NCBI RefSeq assembly: GCF_001426435.1
Contig: NZ_LMER01000016.1
Coordinates: 70,925-134,924, forward strand
Direction of reading: 5' to 3'
Source: Angustibacter sp. Root456
GTDB taxonomy: Bacteria > Actinomycetota > Actinomycetes > Actinomycetales > Angustibacteraceae
Length of the DNA stretch: 64,000 nt
The position numbers were made by a program, and so were the translations under genes. The notes under the pieces were generated by a model. That model worked only from the letters and a program-made list of their open reading frames with translations. It had not been told where the DNA came from and made no database searches. Below, in pieces: positions 29,167 to 34,791 of the stretch (positions are counted from its first letter, which is position 1; every line of letters starts with the position of its first letter).

Positions 29167-29946
29167 ATGCGGGTGAGGTTGGTGCGAGAGCCGGGAACGA
29201 GCCCCGCTGAGCTGCGCGGCGTCAGCCACCGCTACGGGTCCGACCGCCAGGCCCTCACCGACGTCAGCGTGCAGCTGCAGCCCGGGGTGACGGCTCTGGT
29301 CGGCGTCAACGGGGCCGGCAAGTCGACCCTGCTGTCGATCCTCGCCGGTTCGCTGCGACCGACGGCCGGCTCGGTGCTCATCGGCGGCACCGACCTGAAC
29401 GGTCGTCGGCGCCGAGAGGTCATCGGCCGCGTCGCCCTGATGCCGCAGGCCCTGACCGTGCCGCCGAACCTCACCGCCTGGGAGGCGGTCGCCGTCATCG
29501 GCTGGATGCGTGGCTTGGCGTCCCGGGAGGCGGCCCGGCGAGCAGATCGCGCGCTGGAGGCGGTCGACCTCGCGAACCGTCGGGGCAGTGCGATCAAGGA
29601 GCTCTCGGGCGGGATGAAGCGGCGGGTCGCGCTGGCCCAGGCGATCGTCGCGGAGCCTGACGTGCTGCTGCTCGACGAGCCGAGCACCGGCCTCGACCCG
29701 CAGCAGCGGCGACGCATGGTCGACATCGTCAAGGCGCTGCACGGCACCGTCGTGTTCAGCAGCCATGTGATGGAGGACGTCGTCGACACGGCCTCGCGGG
29801 TGCTCGTGCTGCACGAGGGTGGAGTTCGTTTCGACGGCGACGTCGACGAGCTGAGCGCGCGAGCGCCGGCCGGTGCACCACCGGAGCGCCGCCCCGAGGC
29901 GGCGTTCCTGGCGCTGATCGGCGACGCGGAGGCGCGAGCCCGGTGA
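29167..29946 (+). CDS. ABC transporter ATP-binding protein
   Basis: This 259-residue ATPase has Walker A GVNGAGKST, signature LSGGMKRRVALAQA, Walker B VLLLDEPSTGLD and switch His in SSHVMEDV. It resembles the exporters with separate permease genes (ABC-2 type). The next gene overlaps its stop (GTGA 29943-29946) and encodes membrane protein. The transported substrate is unknown; the kinase-regulator pair just upstream may control it, as is common for lipid or antibiotic exporters. Confidence 0.92.
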   Translation: MRVRLVREPGTSPAELRGVSHRYGSDRQALTDVSVQLQPGVTALVGVNGAGKSTLLSILAGSLRPTAGSVLIGGTDLNGRRRREVIGRVALMPQALTVPPNLTAWEAVAVIGWMRGLASREAARRADRALEAVDLANRRGSAIKELSGGMKRRVALAQAIVAEPDVLLLDEPSTGLDPQQRRRMVDIVKALHGTVVFSSHVMEDVVDTASRVLVLHEGGVRFDGDVDELSARAPAGAPPERRPEAAFLALIGDAEARAR

Positions 29947-31139
29947 TCGTCCTGCGGGTGTGGATCCGCCGCTCGCTCGCGATCGTCGTCGCACCGGTGG
30001 TGGTCGTGCTGCTGACGCTCGGCGCGTGGTCGAGGGACGGCTGGCAGTTCGAGTCCCTGTGGGCGCTGCGCGCGGCGGTGCTGCTCGTGCCGCTCGTCTC
30101 ACCGGTGCTCGCCGCCGCGGTGGCCTTCGACGTCGCCCGCCGCTGGGGGCCGCTCGTGACCGTGCTCGGGCCGTCCACCGCGCGCTGGCGTCGGGCGACG
30201 CTCGCGCTGGTGGCCGTGCACGTCGGCTGGACGTTCGCCGCGGTGTGTCTCGTCTGGGCGGCGGCGGGCGTCCGGCTGGTGCTCGACGACGCGATCTGGC
30301 AGGCCGATCCCTGGTTGCCGGTGGAGGTGGTGTCCGCGCTGGGCGCCGCTGCGGCCGTCGGGTTGCTCGTCGCCACCCTGGTCAAGGGACTCGCCGCCCC
30401 GCCGCTCGCCGCCGTCCTGGTGTTCGGGGTCGAGGCGCTTGCCGGGCCGTACGGCTTGATGTCGCTCTTCAGCCCGATGGCCCTCGTCGACTCGGCGGTG
30501 GGGCTCGAGCGCGATCCCGCGGCGGCCGCCTGGGCCGTCGCCCTCAACCTCGCGGTGCTGGTGTGCTGCTGCGTGGTCGCGTTGCGCGGCGCGGTGACGA
30601 GCCGAGCCTGGGTCGCGCAGGTGACCCTGGGGTGCATGGTCCTCGGTGGGGTTCTGCTGGGGCACGGGCCGTCCTCCGCACTGGAGTTCCGTCCCTCCAC
30701 CCAGCCTCGGGCGTGCGCGCGCGCTGGTGCCGTCGAGGTGTGCGGCCCGGGCAACACCCAGCCCTTCCTGAGCGAGCTGGCCGGCGGCCTGGCGGGCGCC
30801 ACCGGGCAGCTGGCCCACTCGGGGCTCCCCCTGCCGCACGAGTTCGTGCTCGGCGTGCCGGGGGAGCAGGCTGCCGTGACGCCCGCAGCCAGCGTCGTCC
30901 ACGCCTACCCGGCGGGTCTGACCCGCAAGCGGCGCACGACGACTCTGGCCCGCGTGCTCGCCCTGCCGCAGATCTGCCCGCAGCTCCTCGACGCCGGACC
31001 CGACACCACCCCGCTCCTCGATCGCCAGGCGCAGGTGAGTGCGTGGATCCGGCAGGCTCTGGAGCGCGGCGGAAGCGATCCGGCACCGCCGGGTGTCGTC
31101 GCGGCCTACCGCGACCTCGAGACGTGTCGGGTCACATGA
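29943..31139 (+). CDS. Membrane protein, probable ABC exporter permease partner
   Basis: This 398-residue protein has about six hydrophobic helices in the first 240 residues. A C-terminal extracytoplasmic domain (about 245-398) has several Cys residues (RACARAGAVEVCG, ICPQL and ETCRV) that may form disulphides. The overlap with the ATPase gene and the ATGA overlap with the next gene mark an operon. It carries no known permease signature that I can name, so the role is inferred from context. Confidence 0.7.
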   Translation: MIVLRVWIRRSLAIVVAPVVVVLLTLGAWSRDGWQFESLWALRAAVLLVPLVSPVLAAAVAFDVARRWGPLVTVLGPSTARWRRATLALVAVHVGWTFAAVCLVWAAAGVRLVLDDAIWQADPWLPVEVVSALGAAAAVGLLVATLVKGLAAPPLAAVLVFGVEALAGPYGLMSLFSPMALVDSAVGLERDPAAAAWAVALNLAVLVCCCVVALRGAVTSRAWVAQVTLGCMVLGGVLLGHGPSSALEFRPSTQPRACARAGAVEVCGPGNTQPFLSELAGGLAGATGQLAHSGLPLPHEFVLGVPGEQAAVTPAASVVHAYPAGLTRKRRTTTLARVLALPQICPQLLDAGPDTTPLLDRQAQVSAWIRQALERGGSDPAPPGVVAAYRDLETCRVT

Positions 31140-31696
31140 GGGCAGTGGCGCTCGGGTGGTTGCGGTCGCGTGGCTTCGTGGGCGCGCTGGTCGTGGCGGC
31201 GGCGACCGCCATCGCCGGGGGCGTCGCCGCCGACACCACGTTGCAGCTTCCTCTCGTCCAGCGGTCGCTTCCGCTGCCGGTCGTGGTGCTGCTGGTCGCG
31301 GTGATCGTCGTCGTGACGCCGATCCAGGACCGCTTCGGCGGCCTGGAGGCCTCGCTCGAGCGCCGGCGAACGGACCGACTCCTGGCGGGCGCCCTCGCCT
31401 GCAGCCTGGCGGTTGTGGCGTGCGGCCCCGCGGCGATGTCGGCGCGGGAGCGGTTACCGTGGAGCGTGTTCGTCGGGCTGCTGGTCGTCGCGGTCATGGC
31501 GGTCGTCGTCGTGGGAGCCTTCGCGTGGCTCCCGACCGTCGTGGTGGGACTGGCGGTGACGTACGTCGACCTCGTCTACGGCCAACCCGTGCGTTCGGCG
31601 CTCGACACAGTGGGGCTACCGGTGCTGTCCGCTCTCCTGATGGCGGCTCTCGGCCTCTACGTGCTGCGTGGCCCATCTGATCTCGGCGCACACTGA
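31136..31696 (+). CDS. Hydrophobic membrane protein of ABC operon
   Basis: This 186-residue protein has about six membrane helices and few charged residues. The ATG at 31136 overlaps the previous stop. Its last codons contain the -35 box of the downstream sigma factor promoter (TGAACC at 31694-31699 includes the stop TGA). It may be a second membrane subunit of the exporter; no family is recognised. Confidence 0.65.
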   Translation: MRAVALGWLRSRGFVGALVVAAATAIAGGVAADTTLQLPLVQRSLPLPVVVLLVAVIVVVTPIQDRFGGLEASLERRRTDRLLAGALACSLAVVACGPAAMSARERLPWSVFVGLLVVAVMAVVVVGAFAWLPTVVVGLAVTYVDLVYGQPVRSALDTVGLPVLSALLMAALGLYVLRGPSDLGAH

Positions 31697-31719
31697 ACCG
31701 CAGCGGCGCCTGCTGCGTG
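31694..31719 (+). promoter_or_regulatory. ECF-type promoter of the sigma factor gene
   Basis: TGAACC (31694-31699), a 16-nt spacer and CGTG (31716-31719) lie 20 nt upstream of the GTG of the ECF sigma gene. The same three-part pattern occurs twice more, at 33348-33373 (-) and 33387-33412 (+). It matches the SigL-like ECF consensus (TGAACC, about 16 nt, CGT), so the sigma factor probably activates its own gene. Confidence 0.78.
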
Positions 31720-31738
31720 CAGAGGGTGAGGAGGTCCG

Positions 31739-32245
31739 GTGCCCGACGACGTCACGCTCATGCGGCAGCTGCACGACGAGCACGCCGCCGCGCTCTGGCG
31801 CTACTGCCTGCGCCTCACCGCCGGCGACCGCGCCCGCGCCGAGGACGTCGTGCAGGAAACGATGCTGCGCGCCTGGCGGCGGCTGCCCGACCTCGACGAC
31901 ACGCGGATGTCACTGCGGCCGTGGCTGTTCACCGTGGCCCGCCGCATCGTGATCGACGAGTGGCGCTCGCAGCGGGCGCGGCCCGAGGTGGCGGTGGCCG
32001 AGCTGCCCGAGTCGGCGTCGGACGACGAGAGCGACCAGCTGCTGCTGTCGTGGACCGTCGCCGAGGCCCTCACCCACCTCACGGCCGAGCACCGGGCGGT
32101 GCTGCGCGAGTGCTACTTCCGCGGGCGGTCGGTGGCCGAGGCGGCGCGACGGCTCGGAGTGCCGGAAGGCACGGTGAAGTCGCGCACGCACTACGCCCTG
32201 CGCGCCCTGCGGCTCGCCCTCGAGGAGATGGGAGTGACGTCATGA
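31739..32245 (+). CDS. ECF RNA polymerase sigma factor (SigL/SigK-like)
   Basis: This 168-residue sigma factor has only regions 2 (about 10-75, including DVVQETMLRAWR and WLFTVARRIVIDEWRS) and 4 (about 110-165, LTAEHRAVLRECYFRGRSVAEAARRLGVPEGTVKSR). It directs RNA polymerase to a small set of promoters. The GTG at 31739 follows GAGGTCC. The anti-sigma gene overlaps its stop (ATGA). Three promoters with TGAACC-N16-CGT surround it and define its probable regulon. Confidence 0.94.
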   Translation: MPDDVTLMRQLHDEHAAALWRYCLRLTAGDRARAEDVVQETMLRAWRRLPDLDDTRMSLRPWLFTVARRIVIDEWRSQRARPEVAVAELPESASDDESDQLLLSWTVAEALTHLTAEHRAVLRECYFRGRSVAEAARRLGVPEGTVKSRTHYALRALRLALEEMGVTS

Positions 32246-32946
32246 GCTGCCGCTACGCCCACCTGGACGGCGCGTACGTGCTGGGTGCGCTCGCGCCGGC
32301 CGAGCGCCAGGAGTTCGAGCAGCACCTGCGCGACTGCCCGGCGTGCGCCGCGGCGGTGCAGGACCTCGCCGGGCTGCCCGGCCTGCTCGCCCGGGTCGAC
32401 GCCGACGTCCTGGACGACGCACCGCTCGCCGACGAGCCGGCCCCCGACACGCTGCTGCCGTCGCTGGTGCGCGGCGTGCGCCACCACCGCAGGCGGCGCA
32501 CCGTCGTCACCGCGATGCTGGCCGCCGCGGCGGCGCTCGTCGTCGGTGGCGCCGGGGTGGCGGCGTCCCAGCTCGGGCAGCCGACCGACCGGCGTCCCAC
32601 CGCTGCGCCGACGACCTCGACGAGCCCGACGTCGACGCCGCGCCCGATGACCGCGGTGCAGCCGGCGCCGATGAGCGCGCGCCTCGCGGTCCAGCCCGTG
32701 GCCTGGGGCACCCGACTGGTGCTGACCTGCCGATACGACCCGGACGACACCCGCTACGGCGAGGCTGCCGAGTACGCGCTGGTCGTCCGCACGCAGGACG
32801 GCCGCACCGAGCAGGTGGCCACGTGGCGCGCACTGCCCGGCCAGCAGATGGAGCTCAGCGGAGCCACCAGCGCGCGGGCGGCGGACATCGCCGCGGTCGA
32901 GGTCAGGCTGACCGGCGGCGCGACGGTGCTACGACTGCAGAGCTGA
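32242..32946 (+). CDS. Membrane anti-sigma factor with zinc-finger (ZAS) domain
   Basis: This 234-residue protein has an N-terminal cytoplasmic ZAS domain (about 1-45) with HLRDCPAC, the H-x3-C-x2-C zinc signature, plus an early Cys and His (SCRYAH). One membrane helix follows (about 90-112), then a Thr/Pro-rich spacer and an extracellular domain of about 95 residues ending VLRLQS. It would hold the ECF factor inactive until a signal outside, probably redox or envelope stress, is sensed or the protein is cleaved. The last 44 nt overlap the opposite-strand gene. Confidence 0.9.
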   Translation: MSCRYAHLDGAYVLGALAPAERQEFEQHLRDCPACAAAVQDLAGLPGLLARVDADVLDDAPLADEPAPDTLLPSLVRGVRHHRRRRTVVTAMLAAAAALVVGGAGVAASQLGQPTDRRPTAAPTTSTSPTSTPRPMTAVQPAPMSARLAVQPVAWGTRLVLTCRYDPDDTRYGEAAEYALVVRTQDGRTEQVATWRALPGQQMELSGATSARAADIAAVEVRLTGGATVLRLQS

Positions 32947-33313
32947 GGGTGCGCGGCCTGAGCCGCGCGAGGACGGCCACGCCACCCAGCACCGCGACCA
33001 CCTCCGAAGCTGCGCTGACCACCTGCGCGGTGCCGGTCCACACCTCGTGGACGCCGAACAGCCCCACCGTCGCCGAGATGACGAAGGCCCCCAGCGTCGC
33101 CAGCCCGAAGCCGACCGCCAGCAGCGCGGGGAGCCAGTGTCGCCACGCCACGAGCAGGACGGCGATCGCCACCGCCCCGCCCGCGTTGAGCAGGAACGAC
33201 GGTCCGATCACCGCGATGTCGCGGAACCCGTCGAACCACAGCTTCAGGTGCACCGCCCCCGATACGAGCACCGCCACCGCCGTCAGCCACCGGATCGCCT
33301 GCTGCTGAGTCAT
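32903..33313 (-). CDS. Four-helix membrane protein, ECF regulon member
   Basis: This 136-residue protein has four hydrophobic helices (about 8-25, 37-57, 60-82 and 90-115) and a basic tail. It has a conserved-looking HLKLWFDGF loop after helix 1. It resembles small DoxX-like or haem-sensing membrane proteins, but I cannot assign it. The 3' end overlaps the anti-sigma gene by 44 nt in opposite orientation. Its promoter region carries TGAACC-N16-CGTG on the minus strand, so it is a likely target of the ECF factor. Confidence 0.72.
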   Translation of the reverse strand: MTQQQAIRWLTAVAVLVSGAVHLKLWFDGFRDIAVIGPSFLLNAGGAVAIAVLLVAWRHWLPALLAVGFGLATLGAFVISATVGLFGVHEVWTGTAQVVSAASEVVAVLGGVAVLARLRPRTLSSAVVAPSRRRSA

Positions 33314-33347
33314 CGCGTCCTCCCGCGTCGAAGGGTCCTGCCTGCTT

Positions 33348-33373
33348 CACGAGCCGCAGGGCGTCCCGGTTCA
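33348..33373 (-). promoter_or_regulatory. ECF-type promoter, minus strand
   Basis: Read on the minus strand, TGAACC (33373-33368), 16 nt and CGTG (33351-33348) lie 34 nt before the ATG of the membrane protein at 33313. It is back to back with the plus-strand copy at 33387. Confidence 0.72.
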
Positions 33374-33386
33374 GATCGAGGTGAGG

Positions 33387-33412
33387 TGAACCGGACGCCG
33401 GCTACCTGCGTA
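33387..33412 (+). promoter_or_regulatory. ECF-type promoter of Rieske gene
   Basis: TGAACC (33387-33392), a 16-nt spacer and CGTA (33409-33412) lie 39 nt upstream of the Rieske gene ATG. The -35 boxes of the two divergent promoters are 13 nt apart. Confidence 0.75.
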
Positions 33413-33451: not shown

Positions 33452-33901
33452 ATGGAGCAGCCCAGCCCCACGCCGTCCCGCCGCACGGTGATGCTGGCCG
33501 GAGCCGGTACAGCCGCCGGCCTCGCCGCCCTCACCGCATGCGGCAGCCCGTCGACGCCCGCGGCGAGCGCGCCGACGAGCGCGGGACAGCCGTCGAGCGC
33601 CGCGGGGGGCGGGCCGCTCGTGAAGCTGAGCGACGTGCCGGTGGGCGGTGCGGTGTCGGCCAAGGACGCCCAGGGCCGGTCGGTGATCGTGTCGCAGCCG
33701 AAGGCCGGCGAGGTCGTCGCGTTCTCGGCCATCTGCACTCACATGGGCTGCACCGTGGCGCCGGCCAAGGGCATCCTGCAGTGCCCGTGCCACGGGTCGA
33801 CGTACGACCTCGCGACGGGCAAGAACACCGGCGGCCCGGCGCCGCGCCCGCTGTCGCGGATCGACGTGCAGGTCACCGGCGGCGACGTCGTCGAGAGCTG
33901 A
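33452..33901 (+). CDS. Tat-exported Rieske [2Fe-2S] lipoprotein
   Basis: This 149-residue protein has a twin-arginine signal (SRRTVMLAG, Arg10-Arg11), then a lipobox-like LTAC. The Rieske domain (about 58-149) has CTHMGC and CPCHGS, the two Cys-His pairs that bind the cluster. It is much smaller than QcrA and is a soluble-type periplasmic electron carrier. The ATG at 33452 follows AAGGAG. As a member of the ECF regulon it may act in redox protection of exported proteins or in an electron-transfer step. Confidence 0.92.
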   Translation: MEQPSPTPSRRTVMLAGAGTAAGLAALTACGSPSTPAASAPTSAGQPSSAAGGGPLVKLSDVPVGGAVSAKDAQGRSVIVSQPKAGEVVAFSAICTHMGCTVAPAKGILQCPCHGSTYDLATGKNTGGPAPRPLSRIDVQVTGGDVVES

Positions 33902-34038: not shown

Positions 34039-34791
34039 TCAGGGCAGGTAGCCGACCCGCACCGAGCCCGCGCTGGAGTGGACGTCGATGACCCGGTCGG
34101 AGGCCGGGTCGGTGCGCACGTCGACGTTCTCCGAGCCCGCGCTGGTCTTCGCCGACACCCGGTAGGTCGCCGAACCCTGCGGCAGCAGCACCGTCACCGA
34201 CCCCGCGGACGACGACGCCGTCACGCGCGTCGGCTCGCTCGCCAGCTCGACCGTCACCGACCCGGCGGACGACGACGCGCGCACCTCGGACGACGACAGG
34301 TTCGTCGCGCGCACCGAACCCGCGCTCGTCGACAGGTCGAGCGCACCCGAGAGCCCGTCCGCCCGCACGGCACCGGCCGAGCTGTGCACCCGGACGTCGA
34401 CGCCGGACGGCACCTCCAGACGCACCCGACCACTGCAGCCGAGCCCGAAGCCGAACGGGCACGACGACCGCACGACCAGCCGGTCGCCGTCCAGGCGCTG
34501 AGTGAGTTGAGGAGCGCGCATCGACCACGTCGCCGTGCGGTCGAGCCGCGTGGTGTCGTCGGCGCTCGCCGTCAGCTCGACGGCCTCGGCGCTCACCTGG
34601 ACGTCGATGCTGCGTACGCCGGTGTAGGTGTGGGAGACGTGCTGGCTGCCCCGGCCGCCGACCGTCGAGGCGACGAACAGGCCCGCGACCACCACGATGA
34701 GCCCCACGATGACCACGGCGGCCACGATGGGTGCCGTGAGCCCGGAGCCGCGTCGGGGCGGCGATGCCTGGGGAGGTGCCGTGGTCGCCAT
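34039..34791 (-). CDS. DUF4097-type beta-repeat membrane protein
   Basis: This 250-residue protein has a membrane helix (about 20-45) after a Pro-rich tail. A beta-helix follows of about six repeats, each carrying the signature SAGS or SAGA (HSSAGAV, STSAGSV, SSSAGSV twice, KTSAGSE and HSSAGSV). Two Cys (SSCPFGFGLGCSG) may pair. The family has no known function and is often linked to envelope-stress systems. The ATG at 34791 begins MATTAPP. Confidence 0.85.
   Translation of the reverse strand: MATTAPPQASPPRRGSGLTAPIVAAVVIVGLIVVVAGLFVASTVGGRGSQHVSHTYTGVRSIDVQVSAEAVELTASADDTTRLDRTATWSMRAPQLTQRLDGDRLVVRSSCPFGFGLGCSGRVRLEVPSGVDVRVHSSAGAVRADGLSGALDLSTSAGSVRATNLSSSEVRASSSAGSVTVELASEPTRVTASSSAGSVTVLLPQGSATYRVSAKTSAGSENVDVRTDPASDRVIDVHSSAGSVRVGYLP

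Follow-up and report, generated by a model that had tools for sequence, protein, structure and literature searches.

The closest described system to the locus analysed here is the SigL/RslA pair of Mycobacterium tuberculosis (Rv0735/Rv0736), an ECF σ factor and its anti-σ factor, and the purpose of SigL is poorly settled even in that species. As to the control of its activity, the oxidation of RslA is reported to release its zinc and to form a disulfide in the CxxC motif (PMC2877774), and SigL is reported to be among the regulatory targets of the M. tuberculosis protease Rip1 (PMC10449499). As to its promoters, the reported -10 consensus of M. tuberculosis SigL is TGN(C/A)AG with CG in front. 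Asp60 and His54 of SigL are reported to read positions -11 and -12, with His54 setting the preference at -12 in M. tuberculosis, and the -10 element of P-sigL in a published scaffold begins CGTGTCAG (PMC6372665). With a conserved promoter of fixed spacing, SigL targets could readily be recognised in many harmless actinobacteria, and the locus presented here, together with its relatives, supplies such a case.

A SigL/RslA-type pair in Angustibacter

The window, that is, the whole 64-kb stretch of Angustibacter DNA that was analysed, encodes an ECF σ factor of 168 aa (31739..32245, + strand) whose best match among solved structures is M. tuberculosis SigL (6dv9, E 1.9e-49). It matches PF04542 and PF04545 and, with 239.8 bits, lies above the cut-off of 202 of the NCBIfam model NF007227 (PRK09645), which we take to stand for SigL. 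Aligned to 6dv9, the protein keeps Asp60 of SigL and has Arg in the place of His54. Directly after this gene, and overlapping it, comes that of an RslA-like anti-σ factor of 234 aa (32242..32946, + strand), whose best solved-structure match is RslA (3hug_B, E 4e-14) and which scores 33.6 bits against PF13490 zf-HC2, above the cut-off of 22.2. Its HxxxCxxC zinc motif is formed by H28, C32 and C35 within the N-terminal anti-σ domain, and one membrane helix can be recognised by eye. An earlier note on this DNA had correctly seen an ECF/anti-σ circuit but had missed which one: judged by the best structure matches of both proteins, the pair is a SigL/RslA-type switch, so the type of switch is already a known one.

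Predicted promoters in the window and across the genome

There are exactly three TGAACC-N16-CGT sites in the window, TGAACC being presumably the -35 element of the SigL autoregulatory promoter. The first one (31694..31719, + strand; TGAACC-N16-CGTG, with the exact match at 31694-31718 followed by G) is the predicted SigL-type promoter of the σ/anti-σ operon, the second (33348..33373, - strand; TGAACC-N16-CGTG, exact match at 33349-33373, then G) that of a gene for a small membrane protein, and the third (33387..33412, + strand; TGAACC-N16-CGTA, exact match at 33387-33411, then A) that of a gene for a Rieske protein. The three sites, each with a spacer of 16, lie where the earlier note had placed them. 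Its description of the signatures as identical holds for the -35 boxes and is slightly too strong for the -10 elements, because the third carries A, at a position where SigL prefers G, and the other two carry G. The membrane-gene promoter leaves 35 nt between the end of CGT and the start codon, and stands back to back with the Rieske promoter, the two -35 boxes being 13 bp apart. The first -35 box was also rightly said to include the stop codon of the preceding operon: the ABC transporter operon (29167-31696, + strand) closes with an ORF (31136-31696) whose TGA, at 31694-31696, is part of the σ -35 box, so that read-through into sigL is possible. As for the -10 elements, the σ promoter at 31694 reads TGAACC-N16-CGTGCA, in which -10 positions 1-4 fit CG-TGN(C/A)AG and the last two do not; none of the three window sites matches the full published TGN(C/A)AG, and the sites of the relatives favour CGTGT.

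Dinucleotide shuffles of the 64 kb lead to an expectation of 0.46 matches, against the 3 found, and 3 was reached in one of 100 shuffles. The three sites fall within 1.7 kb, and a crude score based on codon positions rates all three as non-coding. The genome-wide search (3.84 Mb) that the earlier note had proposed does find sites but no enrichment, given that 30 matches at N16 compare with 38 and 43 at the in-frame control spacers N13 and N19. Since these controls match as often, the motif string alone predicts nothing genome-wide, its weight rests on clustering and conservation, and the exact string was dropped as a genome-wide regulon finder. The 27 other exact matches in the genome comprise 21 that score as coding and 6 that score as non-coding by the same crude measure. 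On reading, TGAACC appears to continue from a start codon in two of these six (L265 and L271), and none of the remaining four (L253, L264, L269 and L278) is convincing, the L253 match lying 171 nt upstream of an FlgB-like ORF. The regulon had been called self-contained, and for the exact form of the motif this stands, in that almost every exact match of this genome that is non-coding and is followed by a good gene lies at this locus.

Conservation of the motif upstream of sigL

A survey of the order covered 396 genomes, 91 of them with a match to the σ factor at E 1e-30 or better, from which 61 SigL-like loci were compared: the window and 60 of the next 62, among 103 places listed (G188 and G367 were left out). 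The exact motif lies up to 160 bp upstream of the σ gene in 32 of the 61 loci, belonging to 21 genera by their genus labels, always with a spacer of 16, whereas shuffles average 0.015; spacers of 15 or 17 in the same position were found in none of the 61. For 22 of the 32 loci, the distance from the first base of the motif to the σ start is 44-50 nt. Loosening the -35 box to (C/T)GAAC(C/G/T) raises the count at spacer 16 to 47 of 61 loci, against at most 6 at each of the other spacers between 10 and 22, and when all occurrences in the same loci are considered, spacer 16 appears 94 times and other spacers at most 15 times each.

More widely, the exact site precedes the σ gene in 22 of 80 named loci, mostly of closer relatives, and the named loci of Actinomadura and Streptomyces are mostly without an exact site at spacer 16. 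The Actinomadura loci (L209-L222) show TGAACC-N17-CGTACTG, in which the spacer has one additional base and which mostly lies some 185-205 nt ahead of the σ start; sigL of Kineococcus (L037-L048) mostly has CGAACC-N16-CGT upstream, while six unlinked Rieske genes keep TGAACC. A further group of loci has the motif about 740-810 nt upstream of the σ gene, before an operon-leading YceI gene (assigned by Pfam for L068).

The paired arrangement also recurs. Back-to-back motifs with at most 42 bp between the -35 boxes are present in 21 of the 61 order loci and in 7 of the 80 named loci. One Nocardioidaceae locus (L191) has the σ, anti-σ, membrane and Rieske genes in the order of the window, with exact motifs before the σ and Rieske genes, and in L182, L187 and L193 the Rieske gene is divergent from the membrane gene, with sigL after the latter. 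Taken together, these loci amount to a collection of naturally occurring bidirectional ECF promoters. In ten mostly Nocardioides-like loci (L173, L174, L176, L177, L178, L180, L181, L184, L185 and L208), two TGAACC-N16-CGT motifs face each other, their 5' ends being separated by 68-98 bp, and the four of these loci that were read have a gene for an MDR-like dehydrogenase at one side of the pair.

The Rieske and membrane genes

The Rieske [2Fe-2S] protein (33452..33901, + strand) scores 52.2 bits against PF00355 (cut-off 20.3), possesses both cluster motifs (CTH and CPCH) and matches solved Rieske structures. The twin-arginine signal SRRTVML and the lipobox LTAC, both predicted from its sequence, agree with its earlier description as a Tat-exported Rieske lipoprotein. 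Just downstream, on the opposite strand, a DUF4097 toastrack protein is encoded (34042-34791, - strand), apparently unrelated to the circuit.

Among relatives, Rieske genes linked to sigL carry the exact motif in 10 of 15 cases (6 of 11 in the order and 4 of 4 in the named loci), and with the looser -35 box (C/T)GAACN in 9 of 11 and 4 of 4, respectively. Unlinked Rieske loci were picked by score in two sets of 40, the first from genomes that match SigL at E 1e-30 or better and the second from 39 genomes scored as being without SigL; the second set retains G092, in which parts of SigL lie at contig ends, and G007, with a match of 1.0e-30. The exact motif is present in 9 of the 40 with SigL, the other 31 being without it, versus 1 of the 40 scored without SigL. 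For the looser form the figures are 14 and 2 of 40, and one of the latter two genomes does in fact hold SigL fragments at its contig ends. Exact boxes at spacers of 13, 15, 17 and 19 gave a single match across all these Rieske loci. The one-sided Fisher value of 0.007 for the Rieske comparison overstates independence, because the loci are related and the nine positives come from four genera, six of the nine from one genus. The motif is kept before a Rieske gene away from sigL in six Kineococcus loci and, in a genome of the same genus as the window (G001), before the best Rieske gene, which is unlinked (L095); no motif was found at the two other Rieske genes of G001 or at the second Rieske gene of the window genome. 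At one locus (L133), the motif precedes a Rieske gene whose genome gave no hit to SigL at E 1e-20.

The small membrane protein, encoded by a convergent gene next to that of the anti-σ factor (32903..33313, - strand), has no Pfam or NCBIfam family in profile searches. It has one invariant histidine (His22) across 35 aligned sequences, together with a near-invariant Asn43 and Glu104, and its AlphaFold2 model (mean pLDDT 92.9) consists of four helices (3-27, 36-56, 60-83 and 95-117). Foldseek returned no match to the model at E < 0.001 (the best being 0.71), and VIA-align 2 gave Z values of up to 12.2 to four-helix bundles from many unrelated families, a likeness that, for bundles of helices, may reflect no more than a widespread arrangement; no function is drawn from the fold. 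The motif stands upstream of the membrane gene in 13 of 15 loci where that gene is beside sigL (7 of 7 in the order and 6 of 8 among the named loci), and in 0 of 19 where it is away from sigL (9 in SigL genomes and 10 in genomes without SigL). In these 19 loci, where the membrane gene has no motif, it is still adjacent to the Rieske gene, from which we infer that the two products share a function and that the pair came under SigL control in some lineages.

Proposed circuit and alternative explanations

That a SigL/RslA-type ECF switch acts on its own operon and on the membrane and Rieske genes via TGAACC-N16-CGT is, in our judgement, highly probable, and the three predicted sites would then be transcription starts read by this σ factor. 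The membrane-held RslA-like anti-σ factor would keep the σ factor inactive until its zinc site is oxidised or the anti-σ factor itself is cut; the σ factor so freed would, together with the RNA polymerase, start transcription at TGAACC-N16-CGT promoters. By reading the promoter of its own operon it would establish a positive autoregulation, and by reading the back-to-back pair downstream it would bring about the expression of the four-helix membrane protein and the Tat-exported Rieske lipoprotein, which might work together at the membrane in quinone or other electron transfer. The earlier note had predicted this control of itself, a membrane gene and a Rieske gene by one ECF factor, and the comparison supports it well: the motif precedes sigL homologues in 21 genera of the order, Rieske genes that are linked to sigL as well as a number that are not, and the sigL-adjacent membrane gene. 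It is very likely that the circuit is real.

If the matches were chance strings near unrelated genes, genome-wide counts no higher at N16 than at N13 and N19 would be no surprise; however, three sites within 1.7 kb, all non-coding by the crude score, and a fixed spacer conserved in 21 genera leave this scarcely credible. Another ECF factor of the genome might instead read the three promoters, in place of SigL or in addition to it. At least one other ECF-like match (E 4.8e-16) and 40 first-look candidates were found in the genome, and L133 illustrates the motif in a genome without a SigL match at E 1e-20; on the other hand, the motif tracks SigL at unlinked Rieske genes (9 of 40 with it, 1 of 40 scored without it) and is carried by the membrane gene only beside sigL, and we regard a different reader as improbable. 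As for purpose, the circuit could exist as described and serve metal or lipid homeostasis or envelope repair, which several partner families without known function behind the motif would allow. This seems to us rather unlikely, in view of the release of zinc and the formation of a disulfide reported upon RslA oxidation (PMC2877774), and of the Rieske domain being an electron-carrier fold. For these two reasons the SigL/RslA-type circuit would rather represent, in the words of the earlier note, an envelope redox response.

What lies behind the motif differs from one relative to another, the cargo including Rieske proteins, the four-helix protein, YceI, Lipoprotein_15 and DUF2231. Lipoproteins of the Lipoprotein_15 type stand behind the motif near sigL in L058, L060 and L069 by Pfam, with other loci alike by eye, and DUF2231 membrane proteins do so in L081 (above the cut-off) and L060 (below it). 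The recurrent cargo (Rieske, YceI, DUF2231 and Lipoprotein_15) suggests that what is served is the outer side of the membrane, and perhaps electron transfer. A wider reading, in which the MDR-like dehydrogenase is counted with the five kinds of cargo named above, would be that actinobacterial SigL-type factors combine one rigid promoter, often paired, with swappable exported or membrane cargo in a so far unrecognised response that would serve electron transfer or quinone protection on the outer side of the membrane; this is put forward tentatively, with somewhat less than even confidence.

Comparison with known systems

The switch is ordinary and its cargo is new. Within the open papers searched, no title or opening of an abstract links SigL with Rieske, YceI or DUF2231, no paper brings ECF, SigL and Rieske together, and no SigL regulon of this kind was found described, the subscription papers of 2005 and 2006 with the original SigL regulon being outside this scope. 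The Rieske protein shares the fold and the cluster motif with the Rieske proteins of cytochrome b6f/bc1 and arsenite oxidase; it differs from them in being, by its signal, a free-standing Tat lipoprotein, and it scores below the cut-off of every NCBIfam family that it matched. The anti-σ factor is of the zf-HC2 type with HxxxCxxC, as are RsrA and ChrR (families according to PMC2877774), but its best solved match is RslA, and by eye its sequence continues through a membrane helix into a further part. With SigL/RslA of M. tuberculosis, the pair shares the sequence of both the σ and the anti-σ factor, the gene order, the HxxxCxxC motif and an autoregulatory promoter with CG-TG at the -10, and departs from it in the Arg that replaces His54. 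Unlike the targets named for M. tuberculosis SigL in PMC13002591 (pks7-pks10, Rv1138c-Rv1139c and recN), what lies beside the Angustibacter switch is a membrane protein and a Rieske lipoprotein.
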